Assembly (NCBI GenBank): GCA_024413465.1
Contig: JAKSVU010000018.1
Coordinates: 1-32,944, forward strand
Direction: 5' to 3'
Source: Alphaproteobacteria bacterium
GTDB lineage: Bacteria > Pseudomonadota > Alphaproteobacteria > CAAGCB01 > CAG-977
DNA: 32,944 nucleotides
Shown here piece after piece: positions 16,359 to 32,030 of the stretch (the stretch's first letter is position 1; each line of letters opens with the position of its first letter). The position numbers were made by a program, and so were the translations under genes. The notes below the pieces were generated by a model. It did no database searches and was not told the origin of the DNA. It was given only the letters and a program-made list of their open reading frames with translations.

Positions 16359-16361
16359 TAA

Positions 16362-16817
16362 TTATTCCTTGACGGTTTTAGGTAAACTTTTATCAACTTC
16401 AACTTGATTCAATTTTTTTGTTTCAGCTTCATCTTGAGCTGCTTTTTCTACTTGAAATTCAGCTTCATTTTCAAGAACCCATTTGATTCTTTCTTGAGCC
16501 TCTTTACGCATTTCTTCACGGGCAACATCACGTTCTTTTGCTTGACGTAATTTAATTTGAAGTTTTTTGTTTAAAACTTGCAAATCGTAATCCCTAATTT
16601 CATCAGCTTGTCTGATAAGTAAATTTCTAATTCTGTCAGGGAGAACATCTTTTTGACGAATTTTCTCTACTTTTTTCTTGAACATTTCATCAATAAGCTG
16701 TTTCTTCTGATCGTAATCAGCCTGGAGAGTATCTTCGATCGAAACATCAGCAGCTTTTACGGACATCGTTGCTAGAATCGTTGAAAATAAAATAAGTAAT
16801 TGTTTTGTTTTTTTCAT
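16362..16817 (-). CDS. Small exported coiled-coil protein of unknown function
   Basis: The start is set at the ATG at 16817, seven bases after AGGAGA; a TTG two codons upstream is also in frame. The 151-residue product begins with a signal peptide (KQLLILFSTILATMSVKA, cleavage likely after KAA or KA). The remainder is almost wholly helical and charged, with Arg/Lys/Glu heptads from about residue 35 to 130, so it is probably a periplasmic coiled coil. No family was recognised. It lies 12 bases after the WYL/TerB-like gene and 3 bases before the chemoreceptor-like gene, so the three genes are almost certainly co-transcribed. It may be a partner of the receptor's periplasmic region, but that is only inference from position. 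Confidence 0.7.
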   Translation of the reverse strand: MKKTKQLLILFSTILATMSVKAADVSIEDTLQADYDQKKQLIDEMFKKKVEKIRQKDVLPDRIRNLLIRQADEIRDYDLQVLNKKLQIKLRQAKERDVAREEMRKEAQERIKWVLENEAEFQVEKAAQDEAETKKLNQVEVDKSLPKTVKE

Positions 16818-16832
16818 CAAAGAATCTCCTTT

Positions 16833-18119
16833 TTAACTTAGCCCCATGATGTTTAATCTAATACCATTTGAATGTAATATACAAAGTAATTCAGCCATAG
16901 CTTCTCGTTCTCTTTTTGCTATAAACCCATCGCCTAAGACCATTTGTAAAAACATTTTGACAAATTCATACAAAATATTTTCAGGAAAAGCCGTAAGGAT
17001 TTCTAGGGCTTCATAAAAACTTTGCTCATTCGGTTTTAGATTATAAACATAGTCTAATACTTCACTCACATTAAAAATTATAAACCCACAACGGTTAACA
17101 AGATATTGCTCCCATAATTTTTTTTCAACTTTATCTTCTTTAAATCTACATTGAGAAACATAGCGAAGACCAACTAGTTCATATCGGATATTGTTTAAAA
17201 CTTCTATGAGAGGCGAAAATGGTAAAGGAATGTAATTTTTTATATTTTCTGTCAGAAAATAAAGAGGATTAACAATTTCAGACATTGTTTTTAAATCATA
17301 TAGTGAAACAATTTGCGTTACTGAAATTCTTCCATTCCTATTTAATTCTGGACAAAATGCATTAATAAAAAGTTCTGCATCCACATAATATATTTTCTGA
17401 ATAACCATTATCCTATCTGCTAACATACTATTTTGATCCCAATAAATTATTCCAATTGGGCAAATTAAGTTATCAAAAAGGATACGTTCATTAATAGATT
17501 GTTGGTTTAAATAAGTAGAGTGGGGATAATTTTTTTGTTGTAAATCGGGAATAAAAGATGTTTGAGAAGCAACGTATTGATTTGTTGAAACGTCGATTTC
17601 TGAAATATTAAAATTTGGAATAAAATTGTTCGGAGTTGGTTTTGATGGAGCTTTTGGCGGAGGTGTAAAACGAAAACCTCCATTCTCTTTTTTCTTTTCT
17701 TTTTCCCATTCTTGAGGTGCTAATCCTCGTAATTGTTTTATATAGTTTTTAGTTTCTTTTGTAATAGGAGAAGGAGGCGGGGCTTGTAGCGTTTCTGTAT
17801 TTTCTTTAGCTTCAATAATGGGGGCTTTTTCTTTTCCAATATTGTCAAAAACGCTGTCAAATTTTTCAATTTGAGCTTCAACAAAATTTTCGGCACGTTT
17901 TATTAATCCCTTGATTGAACGTGATTGTTTCTTTAATGCTTCATTTCGTTCTTTTTCAAGTTTTTCTAATTCAATTTTTATTTCAACAGGAGGAATATAC
18001 TTTCCATCAATTTGTGAAAAACGTTTTTCTTTTTTCCATGGACGACGATTACTATGGCTTGTCGCTATTGACAAGCTTTCTAGTAAATCATCATTGACAG
18101 TGTCGTCTTTGTTTTCCAT
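16833..18119 (-). CDS. Cytosolic protein with WYL-like and TerB-like regions, unknown function
   Basis: A 428-residue protein without signal peptide or membrane segment. The first half is charged and disordered-looking, with proline clusters (APPPSP at about 113; FTPPPKAPSKP at 151-161). Residues about 215-275 read IIYWDQNSMLADRIMVIQKIY, then LFINAFCPELNRNGRISVTQI. This matches the outline of a WYL ligand-sensing domain: a strand with IxY, an arginine-led strand, 'yl-AFC', then R-x-(F/I)-x-x-x-x-I. The last 45 residues, VKMFLQMVLGDGFIAKREREAMAELL, look like a TerB helix pair with an acidic GDG turn. Both assignments are by eye and tentative. No DNA-binding helix-turn-helix is seen, so this is not a typical WYL regulator. 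The start has GGAA at a good spacing. Confidence 0.6.
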   Translation of the reverse strand: MENKDDTVNDDLLESLSIATSHSNRRPWKKEKRFSQIDGKYIPPVEIKIELEKLEKERNEALKKQSRSIKGLIKRAENFVEAQIEKFDSVFDNIGKEKAPIIEAKENTETLQAPPPSPITKETKNYIKQLRGLAPQEWEKEKKKENGGFRFTPPPKAPSKPTPNNFIPNFNISEIDVSTNQYVASQTSFIPDLQQKNYPHSTYLNQQSINERILFDNLICPIGIIYWDQNSMLADRIMVIQKIYYVDAELFINAFCPELNRNGRISVTQIVSLYDLKTMSEIVNPLYFLTENIKNYIPLPFSPLIEVLNNIRYELVGLRYVSQCRFKEDKVEKKLWEQYLVNRCGFIIFNVSEVLDYVYNLKPNEQSFYEALEILTAFPENILYEFVKMFLQMVLGDGFIAKREREAMAELLCILHSNGIRLNIMGLS

Positions 18120-18169
18120 AGCTTTCCAAAAAAAATACTTTAATTGTTATTCTACAAAAATAATGTTAA

Positions 18170-20026
18170 TTATTTATGTTTAATTTTTTTAGGATCTATC
18201 AATTTTAGAGGCTTTTTGTTTATTCCAACCTGATTTATCCAAAAATCTTGGCATCCTCTAATGATACTTGATGTTAGTTTGTTTTTATTAACGTCAAATT
18301 TTACGTCAGGTGTCTCATCAAAAGGAGTAATAATTAAATTCCCACCACCATTAAAACAAGAAGTATAACCAGGTGTTAAATTTTTTTCAAAACCAAGTAA
18401 TCTTGTTTTCTTTGATTTAAAGGGAGCGTGAGCGTAAAAAATATCATTTTGACCTGATTTATCTATAATATTCACATAAGGCATTATCCATCCAACTTGA
18501 CCAACGAGTTCCCAAATAAAAAGACGATTATATTCTGGTAATATCTGTTTTCCCGTTGTTCTACTTGGTAAACTTTTTTCTAATCCACGATGCCTTAATT
18601 GCAATTCTTTTAATCGTAATGCAGCACCTTGGCTGATTAAATCTTTTTGTAAACTATTCCATTTTTGAGCAAAAAAAGTATTCCAATGAATATGTTCTGC
18701 ATTAAGAGGAACATAAATTAGAAATTTATGTTTTGTAATATTACTTATTTGATTTGCATGTGAAAAAGGTATGGCTGTTCCTATCGTTAAATAAATTAAT
18801 GTCGTAATGATAACAAAACGAGTTCTTGCGGTTATATTCTCTGTGATGATTTTCATCATTCCAATGGGGATTAAAATTGTGAAAAAACTATAGGGTTTAT
18901 AACCAACAGAATCTGCTCCCCAAAAACATGCATAGAAAATAATGTAGCATACAAAAAATAAACAGAGTTCAATTGGAAAAATTAAAGATAAATATTTTTT
19001 TCTTAAAATTTTAAATCCAAACCAACCACAGAAAAAAGGAAGCCAAAAATAATAGGCATATTCTATGAATATTGAATATAGATATGTTGAACAAAAATCT
19101 GGGAAATTTTTTTGATATTGAGCTATAAAGCTGTTTGGTATTCCAGAATTATACGTTTTTTCTTGGTAGATATAAAAAAGATATAAAATACCAAACATCA
19201 TAAGAGCTATGATCGTTTTAGCTATATATTTCTTTGTTCGAAAAATACCTTGAATGAGTAATATAAATGTGAATAGAGAAAAAATAATTCCATCTAATCT
19301 GCAAATTGCAAGAAGAATTGAAAGACCAGATAAAATAATAGGTTTTCTGTTTTGGGCAGTTGCATGGTAAGTCCATTCTAGAACAATTAAATTGAACAAA
19401 GCTGTTTCTGTTCCAGACCAAAAAAATGCTAAAAATGTTTTGTTAAATAGTAAAATGAGGCAAAGTAAGAGATAAATAATTAAGTTATGTTGTCTTAAGT
19501 CTCCTGTTATCGTCATTCTACGAATAAAACAAAAAGCAATGTATAAACAACAGATAGAACAAGAAAATGACAATAAATTTGCACTATGTGGAGGAATAAT
19601 GCCAATGTACCACATTCCTCGTAATAAGATTAACCATAACCAACTTGTATACCCGTTGACAGGAATAAAGGGAGGACGATTATAAACGAAACCATAACCG
19701 TCTACAGCATTAGAAACATATCTAAATGAGACAAATGCATCATTTGATAAAAAATAATAAGATTTAGATACGTAAAAGAAAATTAATGTAAGAATAGTAA
19801 ATAGAATGGATATTCTGGTACATCCATCAGGTTTCGATGACTTCCAATTATCTAAACAAAAACTAGTTTCTTTTAGAAGAGGTTTTATTCCATGATAAAT
19901 TCTAAAAAAAGTTTTTTTTATATTCAGATATTTTAATGAATCTGTAGAAAAAAATATTTTCTTTAATTTTAAAAATTTTGTTAAAAGCGAAATTTTTAAT
20001 CGCCAGAAAAAATCCTTGTTATTCAT
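18170..20026 (-). CDS. GT-C-type membrane glycosyltransferase, AftB-like
   Basis: A 618-residue polytopic membrane protein with about ten hydrophobic segments between residues 72 and 440 and a soluble C-terminal domain. The first extracytoplasmic loop carries SNDAFVSFRYVSNAVDGYGF (from residue 95) and then NGYTSWLW. This is the pattern of arabinofuranosyltransferase-like GT-C enzymes (DDAYISFRYARN...VEGYTNFLW), with D96 as the likely catalytic acid. Such enzymes move sugars from polyprenyl-phosphate carriers onto glycans or proteins outside the inner membrane. The donor and acceptor here are unknown. It overlaps the preceding bitopic-protein gene by four bases (ATGA), so the two are translationally coupled. 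A long N-terminal cytosolic segment of about 70 basic residues is unusual. Confidence 0.7.
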   Translation of the reverse strand: MNNKDFFWRLKISLLTKFLKLKKIFFSTDSLKYLNIKKTFFRIYHGIKPLLKETSFCLDNWKSSKPDGCTRISILFTILTLIFFYVSKSYYFLSNDAFVSFRYVSNAVDGYGFVYNRPPFIPVNGYTSWLWLILLRGMWYIGIIPPHSANLLSFSCSICCLYIAFCFIRRMTITGDLRQHNLIIYLLLCLILLFNKTFLAFFWSGTETALFNLIVLEWTYHATAQNRKPIILSGLSILLAICRLDGIIFSLFTFILLIQGIFRTKKYIAKTIIALMMFGILYLFYIYQEKTYNSGIPNSFIAQYQKNFPDFCSTYLYSIFIEYAYYFWLPFFCGWFGFKILRKKYLSLIFPIELCLFFVCYIIFYACFWGADSVGYKPYSFFTILIPIGMMKIITENITARTRFVIITTLIYLTIGTAIPFSHANQISNITKHKFLIYVPLNAEHIHWNTFFAQKWNSLQKDLISQGAALRLKELQLRHRGLEKSLPSRTTGKQILPEYNRLFIWELVGQVGWIMPYVNIIDKSGQNDIFYAHAPFKSKKTRLLGFEKNLTPGYTSCFNGGGNLIITPFDETPDVKFDVNKNKLTSSIIRGCQDFWINQVGINKKPLKLIDPKKIKHK

Positions 20027-21096
20027 GGTGTTAATAATTCATTTTTATATTCTGATAAACCCAATAATTCAATAAGAGTTTCCCATTCCATCATACATTG
20101 TTGTTTTCTGGCACAATGATAGATGAGAAAATCAGAAAGAGGTTCAACGTAATCAATTTTTTCATCAATATCTTTTATGTTATCTAAAATAGGCTGTAAA
20201 TTTATATAGAAAGCACTGCTTATTTCATGAGCATTTTCTTTCACCAAATTTAAATCGTAAGAAGGTGTCAATCCGATTTTCTTTAACGTTGTAAATGGTA
20301 ATAAATTTACTTCAGTTAAAGTGGTAAAAGTTTCGAAATTCATTTCTATAATTTTTTCTATTTCCGCAATATCTTCAGATTGAGCCCACTTTTTGATTAG
20401 ACTTTGAACAAAAGGACGAAATTCATTTAATTTTTTAAATGAGTATACATCAGCATTTATCAAAAAATCTTTCAATGCGGGATCTTTTTGAACAGCTGTT
20501 CTAAAGTCAATTAATTTTCCTCGTTTTGGTAAATTAAATGATTTTTGGGAAGATTGCTGATTTGAAGAATTTATCACGACAGGTGCTTGGTGGATAGTTT
20601 TTACATTTGAAACAATATTAGCTTTTTGTTCAGCAGGCTTTTTAGATATTTCCTCTGTGGGAGTTTCTTTTTTTTCTTCGGTTAGTTTTGAAAATTCCTG
20701 TTTTATAGTAGCTTCAACGTTTTTTAGTTCATTAGTAATATTATTAAGTTTATAACGGTTTGTTTCTGGAGCTATTTTGGGGCGGTCTTCAACTTTTGTA
20801 AAATTTTGAATAATGTCAATTGTCTGTTTTTTCCCATTTTGTACTAAGCCAACGACTTTTTCTTTTGATTTATCTGATTTTAAGAAAAAAATAACTCCCC
20901 CGATAATTGCGAGTAGTATGAAAATAGATAAAATAACATTTTTACTTAAATGAAAATTTTCAGATTTTTGGGTAGCCTTATATACCTTAGGTTCAGATGT
21001 ATACGCTCTTACATCTGGATCACTTTCATCCAAATCATCAGCGTCCCATTCTTCATTTGTTGGTTCGTGGTCAAATCTATCTTCAAATGTATCCAT
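20023..21096 (-). CDS. Bitopic membrane protein of unknown function
   Basis: A 357-residue product with an acidic cytosolic head (DADDLDESDPD within residues 18-28), one transmembrane helix (about 54-72) and a long region outside the cytosol. The outer part begins with a Lys/Glu/Thr-rich linker to about residue 195 and ends in a compact helical domain (about 195-357), with two cysteines in YHCARKQQCMMEWE. No family was recognised. The start has GAGG seven bases upstream. The gene lies 60 bases after one predicted glycosyltransferase and overlaps another by four bases. This suggests a structural or regulatory subunit for them, but the sequence does not show a function. Confidence 0.68.
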   Translation of the reverse strand: MDTFEDRFDHEPTNEEWDADDLDESDPDVRAYTSEPKVYKATQKSENFHLSKNVILSIFILLAIIGGVIFFLKSDKSKEKVVGLVQNGKKQTIDIIQNFTKVEDRPKIAPETNRYKLNNITNELKNVEATIKQEFSKLTEEKKETPTEEISKKPAEQKANIVSNVKTIHQAPVVINSSNQQSSQKSFNLPKRGKLIDFRTAVQKDPALKDFLINADVYSFKKLNEFRPFVQSLIKKWAQSEDIAEIEKIIEMNFETFTTLTEVNLLPFTTLKKIGLTPSYDLNLVKENAHEISSAFYINLQPILDNIKDIDEKIDYVEPLSDFLIYHCARKQQCMMEWETLIELLGLSEYKNELLTP

Positions 21097-21156
21097 AGCA
21101 GAATCCTCTTCAATATCTCCTATAGCCTACCCATTTTTATTAAAAAAATCTAGATA

Positions 21157-22665
21157 TTAGTGACTTATTTTGAAAATTTGTATTTTTGACGTTTTGCTAA
21201 TATTTTTTTCATAAACAGGTTCTTGACATACCCAACCAGAAACGGATTTATTTGTGTCATACCTATTTTGAGCAGGTTCTCTTACGTTGTAGCAACCACT
21301 TTCATTTTTTAAATTCAATGCCACATAATAGTCAATTTTATAGTAATTAAACACAGATTGGATATCCGTCTGATTTTTTAAAAATTCTTGCATCTTCATA
21401 TCTGTATTAAGACCATCAAAACGAATGGTTTTTTGTTTTGATTTCGTTGCTATAATACCAGCTCCAGTGGAGGCTGAATAAATACCTGTATTCGTTGTTA
21501 CGAAAGGTTCGATTGCATTTGCATAATTTGAGTAGGAAATATTATAAAGTTTTATGGAGTTAAATAAAGTTGCTATAAAGACTGCTATGCCAAAATACTT
21601 CCAAATATTTAATGATTTTTTACTTTCATCTGAAGAAAGTTTTAGATTTATTTCATTGAACGCGTATGTCAAAGCCAATGGTGTACTAATTGCTAGAAAA
21701 TAAAAATGATATTGTGGAATAAGAGCTACAGAAAAAATTCCATAAAATAAAAGGGATACAATTGAAAACCATATTAACGTATAAAAGAGAGTGTCTTTAG
21801 GTGTTTGAACCTTTTTTTGCCAAGGATAAGAGTTATAAGCAGATAAAATAATTAATAAGGCCGAAAACGGTTGTAAAATAATGTTCAAAGGTTGTTTTAT
21901 CAACGAAAAAAAAGGATCAAAGGCAAAAAAACGAATAAAGGAAATTATTGATGTTCCTTGTCGATTTAAAAGAGTATGAAAATCTGTTGAAAAAATTGAA
22001 TTGTAAATATGCTTGTTGTGTATACACACAAAAATAAGAGGAGCTAATCCACACAAAAAACCTATAATCAGTGGAATAAATTGTTTATAGGTAATTGGCT
22101 CTTTCCCGTTAAATTGAAAATAAAAAACAAGAGCAAAAGTTAAAATAAATAAAAATGAGCTTTCATTTGTAATGAAACATAAAGAACTACTTAGACCTAG
22201 CAAAATGGCTGTGTATAAATTGGGTTTTAAAATTGCAAAGTAAAGAGTTATAGAACAAATTAAAATGAAGGGAATTATTAAAAATTCTCCAGTTCCAAAA
22301 GAACTAATTTTTATATAGAACAGAAGAACAAATGTACCTGAAGCAAAGTAATGAGCATCTTGAAGGTTAAAAGATAGATAGTTAAATATTATCTTAAAAA
22401 GGAAAAGTGTTAGAAAACCACAACTAATAAACAATAATATTATGAATGTTGTTGAATAATTTGCTAAAATAAAGTTATAGATTATAGAATTAGATTTTTC
22501 CATATATCCGAGAGAGCCAGCAAGTTTGTTGAAAAAATGCTCATGAAAGAAATACTGACCTTGATTTTCATATTTTAAAGCTAATAGGGGAAAAGTAGAT
22601 AAGGTTATTAAATAAAAAATTCCCCTTATGAATAGAGATTTTTGCTTAATCAATCTTGGTAACAC
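21157..22665 (-). CDS. Polytopic membrane protein, GT-C glycosyltransferase-like
   Basis: A 502-residue protein with roughly ten hydrophobic segments spread to about residue 390 and a short polar C-terminal domain (ending near NVREPAQNRYDTNKSVSGW and VYEKNISK). The overall layout, an early loop with acidic and aromatic residues, many helices, then a small soluble domain, fits GT-C enzymes, but no diagnostic motif was found, so the call is tentative. The start is GTG at 22665, inside the end of nfeD (20-base overlap), with GGAA nine bases upstream. No better in-frame start exists nearby. It follows the qmcA-nfeD pair, which is not a usual partner of glycosyltransferases. Confidence 0.55.
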   Translation of the reverse strand: MLPRLIKQKSLFIRGIFYLITLSTFPLLALKYENQGQYFFHEHFFNKLAGSLGYMEKSNSIIYNFILANYSTTFIILLFISCGFLTLFLFKIIFNYLSFNLQDAHYFASGTFVLLFYIKISSFGTGEFLIIPFILICSITLYFAILKPNLYTAILLGLSSSLCFITNESSFLFILTFALVFYFQFNGKEPITYKQFIPLIIGFLCGLAPLIFVCIHNKHIYNSIFSTDFHTLLNRQGTSIISFIRFFAFDPFFSLIKQPLNIILQPFSALLIILSAYNSYPWQKKVQTPKDTLFYTLIWFSIVSLLFYGIFSVALIPQYHFYFLAISTPLALTYAFNEINLKLSSDESKKSLNIWKYFGIAVFIATLFNSIKLYNISYSNYANAIEPFVTTNTGIYSASTGAGIIATKSKQKTIRFDGLNTDMKMQEFLKNQTDIQSVFNYYKIDYYVALNLKNESGCYNVREPAQNRYDTNKSVSGWVCQEPVYEKNISKTSKIQIFKISH

Positions 22666-23086: not shown

Positions 23087-23995
23087 TTATTTCTTTTTCA
23101 ATGTATCTTGGACAACTTCACCAATGCCCGCAATAGAACCAAGGATATTAGTTGCTTCAATTGGCATCAATACTAATTTGGAATTATTTGAAGTGCCAAT
23201 TTCTTTCATAGCTTCCAAATATTTTTGACCTAAAAAGTAATTGATTGCATTGATATTCCCAGCTCCGATTGCTTCAGATACAGCAAGGGTTGCTTTTGCT
23301 TCAGCTTCAGCTTGACGTTCACGAGCTTCAGCATCACGGAAGGCAGCTTCACGACGACCTTCAGCCTGTAAAACAGCAGATTGTTTTTCACCTTCGGCTT
23401 GTAAAATTTGAGCTTGACGTAATCCTTCAGCTTCTAGAATTTGAGCACGTTTATCACGTTCTGCTTTCATTTGACGAGCCATTGAATCTACTAAATCGCG
23501 AGGTGGAGTAATGTCTTTTATTTCAATACGCATAACTTTTACACCCCATGCGTCTGTTGCTTTATCAACAACTTCTAGCAGTTTATGATTAATTACATCT
23601 CGCTGACTGAGTAATTCGTCTAAGTCCATTGATCCCATAACAGTTCTGATGTTTGTCATAACAAGATTCGAAATAGCAACGCGGAGTTGTTTTACTTCAT
23701 ATGCAGCTTGTTCTGCATTTAAAACTTGATAGAAAACAACGCCATCCACAGTTACCATAGCATTATCTTTTGTAATTACTTCTTGAGATGGAATGTCAAA
23801 AACTTGTTCCATCATGTTAATTTTTGCACCAATTGTATCAATAAAGGGAACAATGATATTTAATCCTGGTCGAAGTGTGTGAGTATAACGACCAAAACGT
23901 TCAACGGTAAATTCCATTCCTTGAGGAACAGTCTTAACCCCAGCCATAATAACAACAACAGCAAGAATGATTAAAAATACAAAAAAGCCTTCCAT
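23087..23995 (-). CDS. qmcA: SPFH (stomatin/prohibitin) protein QmcA
   Basis: A 302-residue inner-membrane protein with one N-terminal hydrophobic helix (about 2-20). The SPFH domain shows [45 protein letters not shown] and [15 protein letters not shown], all characteristic of the QmcA/paraslipin group. A coiled coil follows with repeated AEGxxQAxxLxAEG units ([33 protein letters not shown]). QmcA oligomerises in membrane microdomains and interacts with the FtsH/HflKC quality-control network in E. coli. It heads the minus-strand run behind a recognisable promoter. ftsH is in this window, but in another operon. Confidence 0.93.
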
Positions 23996-24032
23996 AGCAA
24001 GTAATCCCCATTTATTGTTTAACTGAGATTGT

Positions 24033-24061
24033 ATTTTAATAAAATTTTAACTCTTTGTAAA
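24033..24061 (-). promoter_or_regulatory. Promoter of the qmcA-led gene run
   Basis: Minus strand: TTTACA (complement of 24056-24061), a 17-base spacer, TAAAAT (complement of 24033-24038). Predicted start near 24026, leaving a leader of about 30 bases. Confidence 0.55.
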
Positions 24062-24077
24062 TTTATTTTTGTCCGTT

Positions 24078-24413
24078 TTATTTTTTGAAAATTAAGCAAG
24101 CTGATAAAACGAGAAGAATGAAACCCGCAATATGATTCCATTTTATTTCCTCTCCTAGATAAAAAATTGAAAAAATAGCAAAAACAGTTAGAGTTATAAC
24201 TTCTTGAATCCCTTTTAATTGTGCTGCGGAATAAATTTCGTGTCCCATTCTGTTTGCAGGGACTTGAAGACAATATTCAAAAAAAGCGATTCCCCAACTT
24301 GTCAAAATAACAACCCATAATGCAGTTGATTTGAATTTAAGATGTCCATACCAAGCAAAAGTCATAAAAACGTTAGAACATATTAACAAAAAGATAGGCA
24401 TGATTGATTGCAT
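24078..24413 (-). CDS. DMT-superfamily membrane protein (DUF486)
   Basis: A 111-residue protein with four predicted transmembrane helices. FMTFAWYGHLKF in helix 1, the central FFEYCLQVPANRMGH and the AQLKGIQEVITLTVFAIFSIFYLGE block are the recognisable DUF486 pattern. The family belongs to the drug/metabolite transporter superfamily, but its substrate is not established. It stands alone, 82 bases upstream of qmcA, and is divergent from the flagellar operon. AAGGA precedes the start with a rather long spacing of 11. Confidence 0.88.
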   Translation of the reverse strand: MQSIMPIFLLICSNVFMTFAWYGHLKFKSTALWVVILTSWGIAFFEYCLQVPANRMGHEIYSAAQLKGIQEVITLTVFAIFSIFYLGEEIKWNHIAGFILLVLSACLIFKK

Positions 24414-24431
24414 AGAATTTTAGTCCTTTCA

Positions 24432-24458
24432 TTTATAAAATTTTGTGTGGAATGTAAA
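24432..24458 (-). promoter_or_regulatory. Putative promoter of the DUF486 gene
   Basis: Minus strand: TTTACA (complement of 24453-24458), a short 15-base spacer and TATAAA (complement of 24432-24437). The spacing is suboptimal, so this is uncertain. Confidence 0.3.
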
Positions 24459-24523
24459 ACTTGTTTGAAAATTGTAAAGTTTTTTAATGATTAAAATAAA
24501 AAAATATGTAAGTATAGATCAAG

Positions 24524-24539
24524 TGGCATAGTTTTTGCT
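24524..24539 (+). promoter_or_regulatory. Sigma-54 (RpoN) promoter of the flagellar operon
   Basis: TGGCATAGTTTTTGCT matches the -24/-12 consensus TGGCAC-N5-TTGCW, with GG (24525-24526) and GC (24537-24538) in the exact register. Transcription should start near 24550, 67 bases before flgB. RpoN control of middle flagellar genes is well known in Alphaproteobacteria such as Caulobacter. It requires an activator of the FlbD/NtrC type, which is not in this window. Confidence 0.8.
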
Positions 24540-24616
24540 TCTGAAGAAAAAGACAAATGGATTCATTTTTTTTAAAGAATTATGTTTTAATGTCTTTTTA
24601 GGAAGGGAGATTTACA

Positions 24617-25060
24617 ATGGATTTACAAAATTTATCTTTGTATCAGATGAGTGAAGAGAAAATGCGTTGGTTAGCACAACGTCAATCCGTTTTATCCCAA
24701 AATATTGCAAACTCTGATACTCCAAAATATATGCCATCAGATCTTCAACCTTTAAAATTTAAAGAAGCCCTAGAAGAGGTAAAAGGCGTACGGTTGACCA
24801 GAACAAATGAAATGCATAGAACAAATGGTTCTGCTGATGTAAAAATGGTTAAAACGAATCCAAATCACTTATCTCCGCTTGCAGAAGGACATTCTAAAGT
24901 GAAAGAAAGTAGACATCCATTTGAAACAAGTATTGATAAAAATGGAGTCATATTGGATGAACAATTTCAAAAAATAGATGATACTCGTCAACAACATGAG
25001 CAAATTACAGCTTTGTTTAAGAAAAATATGTCTATGTTGGTAACGGCGTTAGGTAAATAA
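24617..25060 (+). CDS. flgB: Flagellar proximal rod protein FlgB
   Basis: A subunit of the proximal rod that links the MS-ring/export gate to the distal rod. The N-terminus has the rod/hook signature, MRWLAQRQSVLSQNIANSDTPKY (ANxxTPxY), and the C-terminal helix ends EQITALFKKNMSMLVTALGK, typical of FlgB. The 147-residue length is a little above the usual 130-140. GGGAGA lies upstream of the ATG. It is the first gene after the sigma-54 promoter and precedes flgC by 22 bases. Confidence 0.95.
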   Translation: MDLQNLSLYQMSEEKMRWLAQRQSVLSQNIANSDTPKYMPSDLQPLKFKEALEEVKGVRLTRTNEMHRTNGSADVKMVKTNPNHLSPLAEGHSKVKESRHPFETSIDKNGVILDEQFQKIDDTRQQHEQITALFKKNMSMLVTALGK

Positions 25061-25082
25061 TTCCTACTTATAGGAGGGTGCT

Positions 25083-25493
25083 ATGGATGATTTAGCTTTA
25101 AGTAAAAAGATTGCAGCTTCTGGAATGAAAGCTCAGGCTCAAAGATTGCGTATTATTTCAGAAAACTTAGCAAATGCAGATTCTTTGTCAAAAACTCCAG
25201 GTGGTTTACCATATCGTAGAAAAATACTTTCTTTTAGAAATGAACTTGATCGTGCAAGTGGTGTTGAAACGGTTAAAGTTGGACGTGTAACAAAAGACCG
25301 TTCTCAATTAGAGAGAAAATATGATCCAAATCATCCTTCTGCAGATAAAGATGGATATGTTCTTTTGCCAAATGTAAATCCCTTAATTGAGACAATGGAT
25401 ATGAAAGAAGCACAACGCTCATACGATGCAAATTTGAATGTTATTTCTGTATCAAAAGATATGATGACAAGAACATTGGATATTATTAGATAG
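25083..25493 (+). CDS. flgC: Flagellar proximal rod protein FlgC
   Basis: A partner rod subunit of FlgB. The N-terminal helix contains MKAQAQRLRIISENLANADSLSKTPGG, and the family hallmark YDPNHPSADKDGYVLLPNVN is in the middle. The C-terminal helix with EAQRSYDANLNVISVSKDMM is the FlgC pattern (RSYEANL). The 136-residue length is normal. AGGAGGG precedes the start. It is 13 bases ahead of fliE. Confidence 0.97.
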   Translation: MDDLALSKKIAASGMKAQAQRLRIISENLANADSLSKTPGGLPYRRKILSFRNELDRASGVETVKVGRVTKDRSQLERKYDPNHPSADKDGYVLLPNVNPLIETMDMKEAQRSYDANLNVISVSKDMMTRTLDIIR

Positions 25494-25506
25494 GGAGTAA
25501 AAGCTG

Positions 25507-25827
25507 ATGACACAAGCAATTACAAATGCGTTGAATGCATATCAGGCTGCTGCAAAACGAGCTATTTTACCTGAAGATCATGTTGAAGGTGTGCAAAGTG
25601 TTTCTCCTGCAGGTTCTTTTGCTGAAATGTTACATTCTGCAGCAAAACAAGCAGAGCAAGATAATAAGAGAGCAGAATTTTTAAGTATGAAAGCTGTAAA
25701 TGGGACTGCAGATATGCAAGAAGTTGTTATGGCTGTTGAAAATGCAGAGTTTGCATTACAGACAGTTGTTGCAGTTCGTGATAAAGTTGTTTCAGCTTAT
25801 CAAGATATTTTACAAATGCCGATTTAG
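25507..25827 (+). CDS. fliE: Flagellar hook-basal body protein FliE
   Basis: FliE forms the junction between the export gate/MS ring and the rod. The 106-residue protein has a variable N-terminus, then SFAEMLHSAAKQAEQ and the conserved C-terminal half DMQEVVMAVENAEFALQTVVAVRDKVVSAYQDILQMPI. That last stretch is diagnostic of FliE. AGGGAG lies upstream. Its TAG stop overlaps the possible GTG start of fliQ by one base. Confidence 0.95.
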   Translation: MTQAITNALNAYQAAAKRAILPEDHVEGVQSVSPAGSFAEMLHSAAKQAEQDNKRAEFLSMKAVNGTADMQEVVMAVENAEFALQTVVAVRDKVVSAYQDILQMPI

Positions 25828-25829
25828 TG

Positions 25830-26099
25830 ATGAATGATACTGTTGTTGTTGAAGTTGGAAAAGATGCGATTTATACGCTGTTGATAATGGCTGGGCCACT
25901 TTTGGTTGTGGCAATGGTGATTGGTTTGATTATTAGTTTAATTCAAACTTTGACGCAAATTCAAGAAATGACGTTGGTATTTGTTCCGAAAATTTTAATT
26001 GTTTTTCTAGCATTGTTATTGCTATTACCATTTATGATTGAACAGTTGCGTTCCTTTTCAATGGGGATTTTTGACAGAATTGTCGCATTAGGAATGTGA
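25830..26099 (+). CDS. fliQ: Flagellar export-gate protein FliQ
   Basis: A two-helix subunit of the FliPQR export gate in the flagellar type III system. The sequence has hydrophobic segments at about residues 15-40 and 53-75. The hallmark GLIISLIQTLTQIQEMTLVFVPKI between them matches FliQ (IQAxTQIQExTLxFVPKI). I start at the ATG at 25830 (89 residues); a GTG one codon earlier overlaps the fliE stop and could also serve. No clear ribosome-binding site is seen, so translation is probably coupled to fliE. fliP is not next to it, unlike in many species. Confidence 0.93.
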   Translation: MNDTVVVEVGKDAIYTLLIMAGPLLVVAMVIGLIISLIQTLTQIQEMTLVFVPKILIVFLALLLLLPFMIEQLRSFSMGIFDRIVALGM

Positions 26100-26100
26100 T

Positions 26101-26868
26101 ATGTGGGAACAACTTGTTCGGTTAGAAGTTTATCATTTTTTATATGCTTTTGCTAGAGTTGGATCTGCTTTTTTAGTGATGCCCTTTTTATCATCCAGTT
26201 TTATTCCGGTAAAAATTAGATTATTGTTTACAATCGCTTTCAGTGTTTTATTAACACCATTGATGGTAGATAAAATGCCTGCTCCACCAACAACAGCTTT
26301 GGAATTAGCAAGACATTTGTGTGGAGAAGTTACAGTTGGTGTCTTTATGGGAATGGTTCCTGCAATATTTATGGTAGCAATTGATTTAGTGGGGATTAAT
26401 GCCGCTATGGCAACAAGTTTTTCAAACGCAACTGTTTTAGATCCTCAATCATCAATGCAAACAACAGTTTTATCATCTTTTTTAAGTTTAATTGCTGTAA
26501 TGACAATAGTTGCAACCAATCTTCATCACTTAATGATAGGGGCAGTCTTAGATAGCTATGATTTATTTGCAGTAGGAGCTCCTTTAATGACAGAAGATAT
26601 GAAGGAATTTGTTGCAAAAATTCTTTCTTTGTCATTTTTATGTGGTTTTAAAATCGGGGCTCCATTCATTTTAATGATAGTTGTTTTATATACATCAATG
26701 GGAATTATGAGCCGTTTAATGCCACAATTGAATATTATGTTTGTAATTATGCCTTTACAAGTTTACTTAGGGTTGGCTCTTATTATGATGAGCTTGCCTA
26801 TGATTATTTGGTGGTTTGTAAGTTTCGTCGATGATCAAATGGCCTTATGGTTAGCTGGAGGAGGGTAG
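26101..26868 (+). CDS. fliR: Flagellar export-gate protein FliR
   Basis: A component of the FliPQR gate that exports rod, hook and filament proteins. The 255-residue membrane protein has the family N-terminus with FARVGSAFLVMPFLSSSFIPVKIRLLFTIAFS and the C-terminal GIMSRLMPQLNIMFVIMPLQVYLGL, the FliR signature. It begins 1 base after fliQ with AGGA upstream. One base separates it from flhB, the usual gene order fliQ-fliR-flhB. Confidence 0.95.
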   Translation: MWEQLVRLEVYHFLYAFARVGSAFLVMPFLSSSFIPVKIRLLFTIAFSVLLTPLMVDKMPAPPTTALELARHLCGEVTVGVFMGMVPAIFMVAIDLVGINAAMATSFSNATVLDPQSSMQTTVLSSFLSLIAVMTIVATNLHHLMIGAVLDSYDLFAVGAPLMTEDMKEFVAKILSLSFLCGFKIGAPFILMIVVLYTSMGIMSRLMPQLNIMFVIMPLQVYLGLALIMMSLPMIIWWFVSFVDDQMALWLAGGG

Positions 26869-26869
26869 A

Positions 26870-27967
26870 ATGGCTGAAGATCAAGATGAGGCGTCGAAAA
26901 CTGAGGAAGCTTCCGAGCATAAGTTAAGTAAAGCTAAAGAAGAAGGACATGTTCCTATGAGCCAAGAAGTAAAAAGTTGGTTCATGTTGTTTGCTGGTTT
27001 AATGATGATTTGGGGGATGTTACCGTTTGTCTTAAAATATATTATGCGATTAGCAGTGAAATATATTGAAATTCCACATGAATTTCCGACAGATCCTTTA
27101 GGATTAAGAGATTTATTTTTACATACAGCATTAGACGTTTTTATTGCATTAATAATGCCTTTAGGATTATTTCTTATTCTTGCTATTGCTGCAGCCGTAG
27201 TTCAAGTGGGATTTATGTATGCTCCTAAAAAAATGGCATTAAAATGGGAACGAATTAATTTATTTGAAAATGCAAAAGAATTTATCAATAAACAAAAAAT
27301 TGTAGAAATGTTAAAAGGCATTATGAAAATTATTGCCGTTGGTTATGCAGGTTGGCTCATTATAAAACCTAAAATCATAAATATCTTGAATTCACCGTCT
27401 TTGAATGTGGATGAAATCTTGACGTTGATGTACATATTAATTTTAATGATTTTGTTAACGATGGTGATGATTTTATTTGTAATTGCTTTTGGGGATTTCT
27501 TTTATCAAAAGTTTTCTTTTTTGAAAAAACAAAGAATGACAAAACAAGAAGTTAAGGATGAATATAAAAATACAGAAGGTGATCCTCAGATCAAAATGCG
27601 ATTGAAAAGTATACGGCAAGAACGTGTTCGTAAAAGGATGATGAGCAATGTTCCAAAAGCGTCAGTCGTTGTTACAAACCCAACACACTTTGCCGTTGCA
27701 ATATTATATGATCCATTGCAAAAAGGGTATGAGGTTCCAGTGTGTGTAGCAAAAGGCCAAGATTTTGTGGCTTTAAGAATTAAAGAAATAGCTAAAGAAA
27801 ATGACGTTATCATTTACGAAGATCCTCCTTTAGCAAGGGCGTTGTTTCCAATTGTTGAAATTGACAAGCCTATTCCGGAAGATTATTATGCTCCTGTAGC
27901 TAAAATAATTCAGTACGTTTACGAAGTTAAAGGTAAAAGTTTGCCAGAATATAATGAACCAAACTAA
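26870..27967 (+). CDS. flhB: Flagellar export switch protein FlhB
   Basis: Switches export from rod/hook to filament substrates. It has four transmembrane segments in the first 210 residues, then a cytosolic domain with the autocleavage motif NPTH (N270-P271 is the expected cut). The N-terminus EEASEHKLSKAKEEGHVPMSQEV and the KQEVKDEYKNTEGDPQIKMRLKS linker are typical. The 365-residue length is normal. GGAGGG precedes the start. It is followed after 12 bases by the CckA-like kinase gene. Confidence 0.97.
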   Translation: MAEDQDEASKTEEASEHKLSKAKEEGHVPMSQEVKSWFMLFAGLMMIWGMLPFVLKYIMRLAVKYIEIPHEFPTDPLGLRDLFLHTALDVFIALIMPLGLFLILAIAAAVVQVGFMYAPKKMALKWERINLFENAKEFINKQKIVEMLKGIMKIIAVGYAGWLIIKPKIINILNSPSLNVDEILTLMYILILMILLTMVMILFVIAFGDFFYQKFSFLKKQRMTKQEVKDEYKNTEGDPQIKMRLKSIRQERVRKRMMSNVPKASVVVTNPTHFAVAILYDPLQKGYEVPVCVAKGQDFVALRIKEIAKENDVIIYEDPPLARALFPIVEIDKPIPEDYYAPVAKIIQYVYEVKGKSLPEYNEPN

Positions 27968-27979
27968 AAGGGAAAAATT

Positions 27980-30388
27980 ATGTCTTTTTGGAAAAAAATA
28001 ACATCTCTTTTTGATACACGAGAAATAGATACTGTTTCATGTATATTTGAAAGCGAGAAAGATGCCCTTGCTTTGGTTGATTTTGAAGGTACCTTAATTT
28101 GTATGAATGAAGCTGGACGGTTGTTTTTCAAAAATGATGATTTATATACTGCAGTTACTAAACGTATTTTAATAGATGAAGATTCAAATAAACTGGCACT
28201 TGCAAAGTTGCAAGCTGGTTTACAAAGTACTTCAGATATTGATATTGAATTAGTGATGAAAGCTGAAAATTCAGATTTTTGGGAATGGTATTCAGTTTCT
28301 GTTAAATATCTTGAGGTTGGCCGTCTTTGGAGAGTAAAAGAGGTAACATCAGACCATGCTTTCCATGCAGTATCTATGCAGGAAAAACAGGATTTATCTA
28401 ATTTGATTGATTCTTTACCGGTAGGAATCTATCAAGTAAATGCTGGTAATGAAATTCAATTTGTTAATCAGCGTTTGTGTTCTTGGCTGGGATTTAGTGA
28501 TACTGTTGATTTAATAGGCAAAAAAATCAATGATTATATCGTTGGAGATGTTCCTGACCTTGATGGATCCTGGCGAGGGCAGTTAGAATTTAAAACAAAA
28601 GTTGCTGGAGATTTTACAGCATTTGTTTCTCATGTAATATATGACGATAATGGTGAAACAAAACTGCAGGGATGTGTTGTTCGAGATGTTTCTGAGGTCG
28701 AAGAAAAAAAACACAAAGAACAAAAGGATGAAGTTCATATCCCTAGATTGTTTGAAGAATCTCCCGTTGGTATAGCTGTTTTAGATAAAAGTAATAAATT
28801 TACTGAGGCAAATGGTGCTGTTTTAACTATTCTAGAAAAAAGTCGAGACGAATTAATTGGTCTAAAGCTTGAAGAGTTAATTGCAAATGATGATTGGTCT
28901 GAATTACAGGAAAAAATGGCAAAATTAATGTTGTCAAAAACTGTTAAAATTAATTCTAATATAAAACTAAAGAAAAATAGCAATAAATCAGTTGCTGTCC
29001 ATATTACACCTCTTATAGATGAGGATGAAGAGGGCATTTTAGATATTTTTGGTTTTGTTGTTTACTTTATTGATAATACTCAACAAACAAAATTGTCAGA
29101 GCATTTAGCTGAAAATGATAAAATGAATACTGTAGGAAAATTGGCAGGTGGAATTGCTCATGACGTAAATAACCAATTAACAGCAATTTTAATGGCAACA
29201 GATTTATTATTAGGTGTTCATCCAATGAACGATCCTGATTATGAAGATTTGAATATGATTTCTCAAAGTGCTAAGCGTGCAGGTTCATTAGTAGGAGAAT
29301 TACTTTCTTTTGCTCGTAAAAAACCAAAAATATTAAAATATATTGATGTGAATGAAATTCTGCCAGAACTTGTTTATTTTATTAAAAGATCAATTGGATC
29401 TCAAAAGTTCAATATAAACATTGATAATGGAAGAAATATAGGTTTCATTCATGCTGACAGAGATGAGTTCAATACTATTTTGACGAATTTAGCGTTTAAT
29501 TCTCGGGATGCAATGCCAGAGGGAGGAACATTAACGTTTAAAACGAGAGTTGTAAAATTTCAGGCTGGTCAGTATATTCAAAATGAGGAAGTCTTACCAG
29601 GTGAATATATTGCTGTAGATGTTACAGATACAGGGTGTGGTATGGATGAAAATACAATAAAGCGTATTTTTGAACCATTTTTTACAACAAAAACAAAAGG
29701 AGAAGATTCCGGAACAGGAATGGGATTGTCTGTTGTTTTTGGAACAATTCACCAATGGGGTGGATACGTTAATGTGACAAGTGTTGTGAATAAAGGAACA
29801 ACTTTTTCATTATATTTACCAAGATTTACACAAGAATATATTGATCGTACAAATGTATCTGAACAAAGTGAAGATAAAAATAAAAAGGAAAAAATAGAAG
29901 GAAGCGATTTTAAAGAAATTCAAAAAAAGGAAGAAAAACCGAAAGTTGGAGATCAGTTAGCTTTTTCATTTTTAAGTTCAGAAAAGAAGAAAGTTACTAT
30001 TGAACCTGATTTGTTGGGTAAAGAAACAATCCTAATGGTTGATGATGAAGATATGGTAAGAGCTGTTCATAAGAAGGCTTTAACTGCTAAAGGATATCAA
30101 GTAATAGATTGTTTTAGTGCAGAAGATGCTTTAGAAAAAATTGCAAGTGGTGTAAAATTTGATTTATTAATCACAGATATGGTAATGCCAGGTTTAAGTG
30201 GGGCACAGTTGGCAACAAAATTGCGTGCAGATGGAATTCATACCAAGATTTTGATGATTTCTGGTTTTTCGGAAGAGGCTGCAAGTGGTGAAATTAAGAT
30301 GTTAAAAGATTTTTACTTTATGTCAAAGCCGTTTACATTAAAGGAATTAGGTGAAAAAGTGAAAAGTATTTTACAAGAGGAAAATTAA
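27980..30388 (+). CDS. CckA-like hybrid histidine kinase without membrane anchor
   Basis: An 802-residue protein with three PAS domains (about 14-120, 135-235, 250-360), a HisKA domain with GGIAHDVNNQLTAI (phosphorylated His394), a HATPase domain (NLAFNSRDAMPEGG, DTGCGMDE, FEPFFTTK, GTGMGLS), a Lys/Glu-rich linker and a C-terminal receiver (phosphorylated Asp733 in LLITDMVMPG, then ISGFSEEAASG). The His box and receiver closely follow CckA, the kinase/phosphatase that feeds ChpT and CtrA and controls the cell cycle and flagellar genes in Alphaproteobacteria. CckA usually has two N-terminal membrane helices; none is seen here, so it is either a cytosolic orthologue or a relative. I leave the symbol empty for that reason. 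The gene is 12 bases after flhB and overlaps cysQ by one base. Confidence 0.85.
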   Translation: MSFWKKITSLFDTREIDTVSCIFESEKDALALVDFEGTLICMNEAGRLFFKNDDLYTAVTKRILIDEDSNKLALAKLQAGLQSTSDIDIELVMKAENSDFWEWYSVSVKYLEVGRLWRVKEVTSDHAFHAVSMQEKQDLSNLIDSLPVGIYQVNAGNEIQFVNQRLCSWLGFSDTVDLIGKKINDYIVGDVPDLDGSWRGQLEFKTKVAGDFTAFVSHVIYDDNGETKLQGCVVRDVSEVEEKKHKEQKDEVHIPRLFEESPVGIAVLDKSNKFTEANGAVLTILEKSRDELIGLKLEELIANDDWSELQEKMAKLMLSKTVKINSNIKLKKNSNKSVAVHITPLIDEDEEGILDIFGFVVYFIDNTQQTKLSEHLAENDKMNTVGKLAGGIAHDVNNQLTAILMATDLLLGVHPMNDPDYEDLNMISQSAKRAGSLVGELLSFARKKPKILKYIDVNEILPELVYFIKRSIGSQKFNINIDNGRNIGFIHADRDEFNTILTNLAFNSRDAMPEGGTLTFKTRVVKFQAGQYIQNEEVLPGEYIAVDVTDTGCGMDENTIKRIFEPFFTTKTKGEDSGTGMGLSVVFGTIHQWGGYVNVTSVVNKGTTFSLYLPRFTQEYIDRTNVSEQSEDKNKKEKIEGSDFKEIQKKEEKPKVGDQLAFSFLSSEKKKVTIEPDLLGKETILMVDDEDMVRAVHKKALTAKGYQVIDCFSAEDALEKIASGVKFDLLITDMVMPGLSGAQLATKLRADGIHTKILMISGFSEEAASGEIKMLKDFYFMSKPFTLKELGEKVKSILQEEN

Positions 30389-31158
30389 TGAGTTATTTTT
30401 TTAATGTAGAAGATATAAAAAAAATTATTCTTGAAGCGGGAAAAGCCATTATGGATATTTATGCTCAAGATTTTATGGTATATGAAAAGGCGGATGAATC
30501 TCCGGTAACAGATGCAGACTTAGCTTCAGAACAAATTATCTATAATGGTTTGAAAAATTTATATCCAGATATTCCAGTCGTCGGTGAAGAACATACTGCA
30601 AATGGGGAAGAACCGGATTTATCTACACCATATTTTTGGTTGGTAGATCCAATTGATGGAACTGCAGATTTTGTGAAAAAAAATGGGGAATTTACTGTAA
30701 ATATTGCCTTGATAGAAAATGATACACCTGTTTTCGGTATGGTTTACGTTCCCGTAGCCAAAGAATTGTATTATACGTGTTCAATTCATCAAGCTGTTCT
30801 TGAAAAAGAAGGAAAAGTAATTGAGATTCATACAAGAAAAGTATCTAATGAAGGGTATACCGTTCTAAATAGCAGAACACATTGTGATCAAACTGTTGTT
30901 CAAGAAATCTTGTCAGGTTTTAAAATTAAAGAACAATTTCCGTGTGGTAGCTCTTGGAAATTTTGTAAAATAGCAAGAGGTGAAGCAGATTTATATCCAT
31001 GTTCTCATCATACAAAAGAGTGGGATACTGCAGCAGCTCATGCTGTTTTAAAAGCTGCTGGTGGAGACGTTTATGATGCTAATACAAGATTGCCATTAAA
31101 ATATAGAAAAGAGGGATTAAAAAATCCAATTATCCTTTCTTCTGGGGAAATTTTATAG
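30388..31158 (+). CDS. cysQ: 3'(2'),5'-bisphosphate nucleotidase
   Basis: Hydrolyses PAP to AMP, clearing a by-product of sulfate activation and acyl-carrier transfer. The 256-residue protein has the inositol-monophosphatase-type metal motifs EEH (GEEHTANG), DPIDGTADFVKKNGEF and WDTAAAHAVLKAAGG, and the CGSSWKFCKIARGEADLYP segment typical of CysQ. The ATG overlaps the previous stop by one base (TAATG) and has AGAGG upstream. No sulfate-assimilation genes are in the window, so its presence in the flagellar transcript looks incidental. Confidence 0.92.
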   Translation: MSYFFNVEDIKKIILEAGKAIMDIYAQDFMVYEKADESPVTDADLASEQIIYNGLKNLYPDIPVVGEEHTANGEEPDLSTPYFWLVDPIDGTADFVKKNGEFTVNIALIENDTPVFGMVYVPVAKELYYTCSIHQAVLEKEGKVIEIHTRKVSNEGYTVLNSRTHCDQTVVQEILSGFKIKEQFPCGSSWKFCKIARGEADLYPCSHHTKEWDTAAAHAVLKAAGGDVYDANTRLPLKYRKEGLKNPIILSSGEIL

Positions 31159-31169
31159 AGAACGTTTAA

Positions 31170-32030
31170 TTAGAAGCCTTTTTTAAATGTTTTATTGCAA
31201 TAAGGGCATACAACGTATGTTGATGAAAGTATTTTTGCAATAATAAAAAAAATTACTGGAGGTAAAAGTAGTAAAATAATCCAAGCAAAAAGTAAAATCA
31301 CTTTTATTGGATAAAAATGTTTGTCGATATTGGATATTGCTTTTTTAAAAATACCACCAGCTTTCAAAGCATTGTAGATTGACGCTGTGTTTTGACTTTT
31401 TAATCCAAATTTTTTTTCTTTTAATGCAGTGTATAATTTATCATTTAAGTTGAATTGATTTTTAATTTGATCTCCAACTAATGAAGATAATTCAGTTTTT
31501 AATCCGGATTTTAAATCAGTAGTTATTGTAGATTTAATTTGCTTTGTTGTGTTTTCTATTTGAGTATTTAATTTATTGGCAGATGCTTTTAATTTTTCAT
31601 TAGCAGAATCAATCTTCTTCTGAACGGAATCTAAATTTTTATCGATATCTGATACTTGTTTGATCCCCAATTTTGAAAGGGATGAAGTTACTTTCTTCGC
31701 AGTTTTCGTTTGTTTTGAAATGTTTTCAATTGTATCTAATTTTAATTCTTTTTCAAAATTTATCATTGGTATTGAAATTTTTGCTATGTATTTATCTAAA
31801 TTTACTTTATCAAGAGTTTTATCTGATAAAGAATTATATTGGTCTTCCAATAAGTCATTGATTTTGCTGACAGAAAAAACAATACCGTATTGTTCTAAAT
31901 GATTAGCATTCTTTAAAAAATAGAAAGTAGATGGAACAATTACAAAAATTAACCAGAGTAGAGTGGTTCTTTTAGCTAATTTTATTAAAGGTCTTTGTTG
32001 AGTTAATATTTGCTCATTTTCATTTGTCAT
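31170..32030 (-). CDS. Two-TM coiled-coil protein with C-terminal CxxC, unknown function
   Basis: A 286-residue product with transmembrane segments near both ends (about 20-38 and 240-270). Between them lies a long helical region rich in Lys, Ser and Asn (KKIDSANEKLKASANKLNTQIE), predicted coiled coil. The protein ends in VVCPYCNKTFKKGF, a single CPxC-like half zinc ribbon just after the second membrane helix. Both termini are expected in the cytosol with the coiled coil in the periplasm. No family was recognised. It converges on cysQ with an 11-base gap and is divergent from elbB. AAAGGA precedes the ATG at a spacing of nine. Confidence 0.7.
   Translation of the reverse strand: MTNENEQILTQQRPLIKLAKRTTLLWLIFVIVPSTFYFLKNANHLEQYGIVFSVSKINDLLEDQYNSLSDKTLDKVNLDKYIAKISIPMINFEKELKLDTIENISKQTKTAKKVTSSLSKLGIKQVSDIDKNLDSVQKKIDSANEKLKASANKLNTQIENTTKQIKSTITTDLKSGLKTELSSLVGDQIKNQFNLNDKLYTALKEKKFGLKSQNTASIYNALKAGGIFKKAISNIDKHFYPIKVILLFAWIILLLLPPVIFFIIAKILSSTYVVCPYCNKTFKKGF

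Follow-up and report, generated by a model that had tools for sequence, protein, structure and literature searches.

The gene at 27980-30388 (+) of the 32,944 nt stretch of alphaproteobacterial DNA that we analysed (hereafter the window) most likely encodes the orthologue of the cell-cycle kinase CckA, and its predicted product carries no transmembrane helix while retaining every catalytic and receiver residue that we checked. In other species CckA is a hybrid kinase/phosphatase that drives a phosphate relay through ChpT to CtrA, and it is normally, though not universally, held in the membrane by an N-terminal transmembrane anchor. We compared the window's own genome with those of 11 relatives, and refer to these 12 genomes together as the family. 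Our overall reading, which we consider probable, is that the protein is the sole detected CckA of its genome, that it lost its helix and kept its catalytic residues, that it is fed, at least in part, by a flagellar operon, and that it acts in the cytoplasm or as a peripheral membrane protein.

Domain architecture of the CckA protein

The cckA open reading frame starts with ATG and encodes 802 amino acids without an internal stop. Pfam detected PAS domains (two stretches), HisKA (residues 386-447), HATPase_c (residues 493-615) and Response_reg (residues 684-794). The second PAS domain (residues about 136-240; 28385..28699, +), counted by Pfam and with its bounds taken from the alignment, is followed by the third (residues 254-354; 28739..29041, +), by the HisKA/DHp region with the phosphoacceptor H394 and the DxxN motif (29135..29320, +), by HATPase_c (29456..29824, +) and by the receiver with D733 (30029..30361, +). 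A divergent first PAS domain (residues about 16-128; 28025..28363, +) was missed by Pfam and was recovered with a class-wide profile. With a 22-sequence class-wide alignment, this region matched the profile of the third PAS domain (probability 95.8, E 6.6e-9) and, more weakly, that of the second (67.5, 5e-5), and it had no match to the DHp, CA or REC profiles; when the alignment consisted of the 12 family sequences alone, it matched none of the other PAS regions. Modelling residues 1-136 from the single sequence gave a mean pLDDT of 40, too low to be of use. The three PAS domains, the CckA-like His box and the receiver that a preliminary description of this locus had listed were thus all recovered.

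H394, the DxxN residues (D395, N398), the checked residues of the nucleotide boxes and the receiver residues D733, S761 and K783 were identical in 12 out of 12 family CckAs. The HATPase_c domain of the window protein has F587 at the position of Caulobacter CckA Y514, which we located by means of the 5idj alignment, numbering from the phosphoacceptor, which we take to be H322. Across the family this position is F in the window, H in G003 and L in G002 (both congeners), and Y in the remaining nine sequences. Y514 is a contact for cyclic di-GMP, and the effect of a Y514D replacement is described in the available text of PMC5189948.

Assignment to CckA

The two best NCBIfam matches of the protein were both CckA models (452.7 and 323.1 bits), with a curated cut-off of 1000 bits that lies far above either score. 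We placed the protein in a kinase-core tree of 104 sequences, computed with a quick method and with SH-aLRT support only, in which 60 of the 101 inner branches were open; L036 and L175 yielded no kinase core and were left out. The 12 family sequences formed one group (support 100) adjoining the CckAs, apart from a separate group (support 100) that held 12 of the 13 paralogous kinases, the thirteenth lying among the CckAs without a resolved place. With two very distant kinases from the window's own genome as the root, the group of paralogues fell inside the CckAs; the tree thus indicates nearness to CckA without delimiting a CckA clade cleanly, and the remainder of the assignment rests on gene order and single copy. 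CckA is present in a single copy in the own genome, and no second CckA, membrane-anchored or other, was detected in this 97%-complete draft. Profile matches, core tree, gene order and copy number together point to a CckA orthologue, as the preliminary description had proposed.

Gene order around cckA

The cckA gene lies near the end of a tight plus-strand operon. Pfam identified flgB (24617..25060; Flg_bb_rod, just over the cut-off) and flgC (25083..25493; rod-protein families), two rod-protein genes that we named by position, followed by fliE (25507..25827), fliQ (25827..26099), fliR (26101..26868) and flhB (26870..27967). Downstream, cysQ (30388..31158, +; TIGR01331, 250 bits with a cut-off of 228.8) overlaps the stop codon of cckA. 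The stop of flhB (27967) is separated from the cckA start by a 12-base gap, and neither of the two terminator-like sites that we found in 24000-32000 falls between the two genes, in agreement with what had been noted before.

This arrangement was conserved in all 12 family genomes, with flhB directly upstream at a spacing of -4 to +15 nt (touching or overlapping cckA in eight of them) and cysQ directly downstream. We also found recA 3' of cckA in several relatives, and the order cckA-cysQ-recA in the five family members whose flank reached recA.

Outside the family, flhB preceded cckA in the same orientation, at a distance of 300 nt or less, in 55 out of 77 genomes (46 families). These 77 genomes represent 67 families with one CckA locus each, and were taken from the matches listed in a search of 61 genomes (own genome and family included) and then of 387 genomes, 269 of them matching, after same-genome repeats and family members had been removed; being drawn from the matches listed, the sample is biased to good matches. 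In the other 22 genomes flhB was not found within 300 nt, including three with flhB at 537-1309 nt and some with little upstream sequence read. The Caulobacter order is, we assume, fliQ-fliR-flhB-cckA. In Rhodospirillum rubrum, ctrA, cckA and chpT are associated with flagellar genes, according to the available part of PMC12363192. Since the adjacency of flhB and cckA is widespread in the class, the location of cckA is inherited, and we discarded the idea of a lineage-specific flagellar location: the placement in a flagellar operon given in the preliminary description holds, and it is not peculiar to this organism.

Promoter-like sites and CtrA boxes

We detected by pattern match an exact sigma-54 (-24/-12) promoter-like site, TGGCATAGTTTTTGC (24524..24538, +), located 93 nt before flgB. 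Among the relatives the strict pattern was found before flgB in G002 only. With a looser -24 GG / -12 GC pattern, which brings further chance GG-N10-GC matches nearby, a GGCA...TTGC block was present 66-104 nt before flgB in 10 out of 10 readable relatives (the contig of G009 ends too early for the region upstream of flgB to be included). The upstream sigma-54 promoter of the preliminary description therefore corresponds to a conserved site. Because the spacing in the family operon is tight and conserved and the sigma-54-like site is conserved too, read-through into cckA is plausible, and cckA and the flgB-flhB genes are probably transcribed together from this promoter. CckA would then be supplied, at least in part, by the flgB-flhB operon.

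Two further elements were observed in this part of the window. A second exact sigma-54-like match, TGGCAACAAAATTGC (30210-30224), lies within cckA, where the receiver is encoded, at a distance of 164 nt from cysQ downstream, and is probably due to chance. In addition, a leader motif composed of ATTCA, a T run and AA is located at 24561-24576, between the sigma-54-like site and flgB; it recurs in 7 out of 10 relatives, is no commoner than chance when the window is taken alone, and may represent an activator site or an RNA element in the leader.

The CtrA box TTAA-N7-TTAA was found three times in the window, against 6.2 expected, with no occurrence at the flgB promoter and the nearest one about 570 nt before flgB. 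The closed loop between flagellar assembly and cell cycle that had been suggested requires an action of CtrA on the operon, and with no CtrA box there it is left unsupported. The same result bears on the possibility that the relay is mainly a regulator of motility and not of the cell cycle, its kinase thus being a regular member of the flagellar regulon. The frequency of flhB-cckA adjacency outside the family speaks for this, as does the flagellar gene control given as the core function of the Rhodobacterales relay in the available text of PMC12363192; the missing CtrA box and the 22 out of 77 genomes without flhB within 300 nt upstream of cckA speak against it, and we regard it as a real possibility, though not as the likelier case.

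A sigma-70-like candidate site, TTGACA-17-TATTAT (11/12), was located inside flhB at 27861..27889 (+), ending 91 nt before the cckA start, so that cckA perhaps has an additional promoter of its own. Taken further, this would mean that cckA is expressed from within flhB and that its operon position is merely an inherited order without regulatory meaning. The site is the only one of its score in the window, and cckA is found away from flhB elsewhere, but 40 shuffles of the region gave a mean of 0.33 and a maximum of 2 such sites, and sigma-70-like sites in general, weaker and stronger ones, numbered 37 in 8 kb against 38.0 expected. Moreover, the -10 hexamer is not kept in the relatives (by eye), the bases of the site encode a conserved stretch of FlhB, and in 8 of the 12 family genomes flhB abuts or overlaps cckA. 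We find a promoter-only account of cckA rather doubtful, and retain probable co-transcription from the sigma-54 site.

Absence of the transmembrane helix

The highest Kyte-Doolittle 19-residue mean of the window CckA was 1.18 over the whole protein and 0.77 for windows starting in residues 1-60, below the threshold of 1.6 used for a membrane helix, which agrees with the earlier remark that the protein has no hydrophobic segment. A mis-called start codon was rejected as the cause: the longest open frame comprises 806 amino acids, and with at most four extra codons available upstream, no N-terminal helix can be hidden by a wrong start.

A predicted transmembrane helix was absent in 12 out of 12 family CckAs. 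By the same simple hydropathy rule, 10 out of 77 CckAs of other families lacked a helix in their first 200 residues; among the 67 other-family CckAs of at least 770 amino acids, 63 had a helix and 4 did not, one of these four (L101) having a hydrophobic stretch further inside. Five CckAs from outside the family adjoin it in the tree, of which L016, L017, L018 and L094 have two helices each and L114 (730 amino acids) has none. The simplest reading of these predictions, and a tentative one since L114, beside the family, is helix-free too, is that the helix was lost on the stem of the family. We also observed three helix-free CckAs of 775-833 amino acids in other families (L076, L087 and L111, from G206, G071 and G130, respectively), all with flhB still upstream, so that helix loss may have recurred. 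In the open-access literature searched, which included the available text of PMC4426382, PMC5189948, PMC4853435 and PMC9791040, we found no description of a helix-free CckA family; the available part of PMC4426382 names Wolbachia wNo as an exception to the two predicted CckA helices. The text available from PMC6180460, PMC9791040 and PMC12421884 was not decisive.

The N-terminus of the window CckA has an amphipathic segment (residues 2-13; 27983..28018, +), a candidate for a peripheral membrane-targeting helix. Its 11-residue hydrophobic moment of 0.75 is higher than those at all 590 background positions of the same protein, while the 18-residue moment is low (0.29), the first 20 residues have a net charge of 0, and among the 32 N-termini of the window one other has a higher moment. 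The family CckAs begin with a short amphipathic N-terminus in place of a helix; this amphipathicity fell within the top 10% of the protein's own background in only 8 of the 12 family CckAs. We infer from this that the N-terminus may bind the membrane peripherally. The statement that localisation must work without membrane anchoring was consequently too strong: given this amphipathic stretch, and given that the same genome encodes a DivL-like protein in which PAS domains are combined with a predicted helix (see below), an absence of anchoring is not established.

Relay and regulatory genes in the genome

Both ChpT (above the Pfam cut-off and below the NCBIfam cut-offs) and CtrA (above the curated cut-off), named in the preliminary description as partners to look for, are encoded elsewhere in the own genome, their genes being on other contigs than cckA. 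We also identified a DUF2497 protein, presumably of the PopZ family, a sigma-54 factor, five GGDEF proteins and an FlbD-like activator (678 bits, with a cut-off of 750). The four HisKA kinases of this genome are CckA and a PhoR-, an EnvZ- and a ChvG-like kinase. Its eight receivers belong to CckA, an OmpR-like protein, CtrA, a ChvI-like protein (so named from its place beside the ChvG-like kinase), a PhoB-like protein, a CheY-like single-domain protein, a NarL-like protein and the FlbD-like protein. The lone single-domain receiver had CheY as its best match, below the cut-off, and no DivK- or CpdR-type regulator was found among the eight receivers of this 97%-complete draft. For the relatives, regulators were read in part (20 regions).

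A fifth kinase, AtoS-like, with two helices and 555-581 amino acids, was found in G006, G001, G003 and G005 (L178-L181; one of the four was scanned). Counterparts probably exist in most of the other family genomes, but only four HisKA kinases were seen in the own genome and in G002. Within the window, six adjacent minus-strand open reading frames of 152 to 711 amino acids (14223-22665) had no Pfam match at 1e-5, and a gene for a Band 7 (SPFH) protein lies near them, at 23087-23995.

A reduced DivL-like partner

Inventories of HATPase_c and response-regulator domains had indicated that the genome has no DivL. This was wrong, as a profile built from the proteins of two relatives detected a DivL-like protein in 11 of the 12 family genomes. 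The own DivL-like protein (556 amino acids; C87:40661-42331 of the own genome, L199:3162-4832) has one N-terminal helix and several PAS domains and lacks the kinase part, so that it was missed by the kinase inventories and was found only with the relatives' profile; no significant trace of a DivL kinase part was detected in the 10 kb examined. For DivL, also named as a partner to look for, the own genome thus encodes a DivL-like protein that has the helix and PAS portion and lacks the kinase end.

The match covered the full length in seven genomes, the copy of G011 having one internal stop; in G001 and G003 it was split in two and the kinase end was shortened, and in G007 it extended over the front part only, with two stops inside. 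The search of G002 gave a weak match only, in the stretch that holds its other kinase matches. In the tree, the CckA of this congener (L015) has a very long branch; together with the lack of a detected DivL-like protein, this suggests that the relay may be evolving fast in the genus.

The kinase part of the relatives' DivL-like proteins had Caulobacter DivL (4q20) as its best PDB match in a profile search (E 1.1e-18). In an alignment of four full-length relatives' proteins, read by eye, the position of the phosphoacceptor His is occupied by R, S, Q or K, Tyr being the usual replacement in DivL. DivL presumably adjoins tsaE, an APH-family gene and a nucleotidyltransferase gene; these three follow the DivL-like gene of G006 after two other genes, and none of them is among the four genes before the DivL-like gene in the own genome. 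The kinase end of Caulobacter DivL senses DivK~P, according to the available text of PMC4211667, and in Rhodobacterales that lack DivK, DivL is short, being reduced to its PAS part, as stated in the available parts of PMC2877005 and PMC9430884.

Discussion

Caulobacter CckA is read as a membrane protein that becomes more active as a kinase when its surface density at the pole increases. The family CckA has shed the membrane helices and kept its PAS sensors together with all the catalytic and receiver residues checked. Helix-free cytosolic constructs of Caulobacter CckA were active in solution and controlled by density on liposomes, in the available text of PMC4853435, so that a CckA without the helix may still be catalytically active, although it lacks the most direct means of being controlled by density. 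With such constructs active and the residues kept in 12 out of 12 sequences, we favour a CckA that is cytoplasmic or peripherally bound and has an amphipathic N-terminus that could contact the membrane. It could also be recruited by the DivL-like protein, with its membrane anchor and several PAS domains, possibly in PopZ zones at the pole. Since DivK was not found and the kinase end of DivL is missing, control of CckA would be left to its PAS inputs, to the PAS part of DivL and perhaps to cyclic di-GMP.

A more radical version is that CckA is plainly cytosolic, that surface-density control has been given up, and that the relay works as a switch within one compartment, responding to PAS ligands and cyclic di-GMP with no polar localisation. 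The lack of a helix throughout the family, the activity of the Caulobacter constructs in solution (PMC4853435, available text), the undetected DivK, the reduced own DivL and an N-terminus that is not basic in the window CckA speak for it. It fits less well with the DivL-like helix and PAS part having been kept, with the presence of a PopZ-family protein, with an amphipathic N-terminus recurring in 8 out of 12 sequences, and with the cyclic di-GMP contact Y514 being F here and H or L in two congeners; we consider it somewhat unlikely. A further proposal, which we put forward as speculative and quite unlikely, is that membrane attachment was handed over from CckA to DivL, CckA being peripheral and kept in place by its amphipathic N-terminus and by a DivL that retains anchor and PAS sensors and has lost the DivK-reading kinase end, and that the flagellar dosage of CckA (through sigma-54 and FlbD), and not the phosphorylation of DivK, couples assembly to CtrA. 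If this were true, the expression of the export apparatus would also set the amount of CckA.

A family in which a helix-free CckA has become fixed, next to a DivL-like protein with a decaying DivK-reading end, is a natural experiment on the control parts that can be dispensed with. The stages of DivL among the 12 genomes (a long form lacking the phosphoacceptor, a shortened one, one with PAS only, and none found) resemble what has been inferred for Rhodobacterales. In addition, with cckA placed in a sigma-54 flagellar operon, the long-standing question of a flagellum-to-CtrA coupling could be tested by a single promoter mutation.

The window CckA differs from those of Caulobacter crescentus and Brucella in having no transmembrane helix, in F at the position of Y514, in a genome where DivK was not found, and in a score below the NCBIfam cut-off. 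As in the DivK-less Rhodobacterales with a short DivL (PMC2877005, PMC9430884, in their available parts), DivK was not found and the DivL kinase end is missing (own genome) or without His (relatives read); unlike in these, the case concerns another family, stages of DivL decay stand side by side, and the anchor of CckA has been lost too. As in Rhodospirillum rubrum (available part of PMC12363192), cckA is near flagellar genes, whereas here cysQ follows cckA, and ctrA and chpT are on other contigs. The position behind flhB is common to the window CckA and most CckAs examined in the class. With the CckAs of Caulobacter crescentus and Brucella it shares the PAS-DHp-CA-receiver order and the phosphoacceptor and receiver residues, and its genome shares with theirs a CckA-ChpT-CtrA relay with CckA in single copy. 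The best reading of these comparisons is a known relay in which the kinase has given up its own attachment to the membrane.
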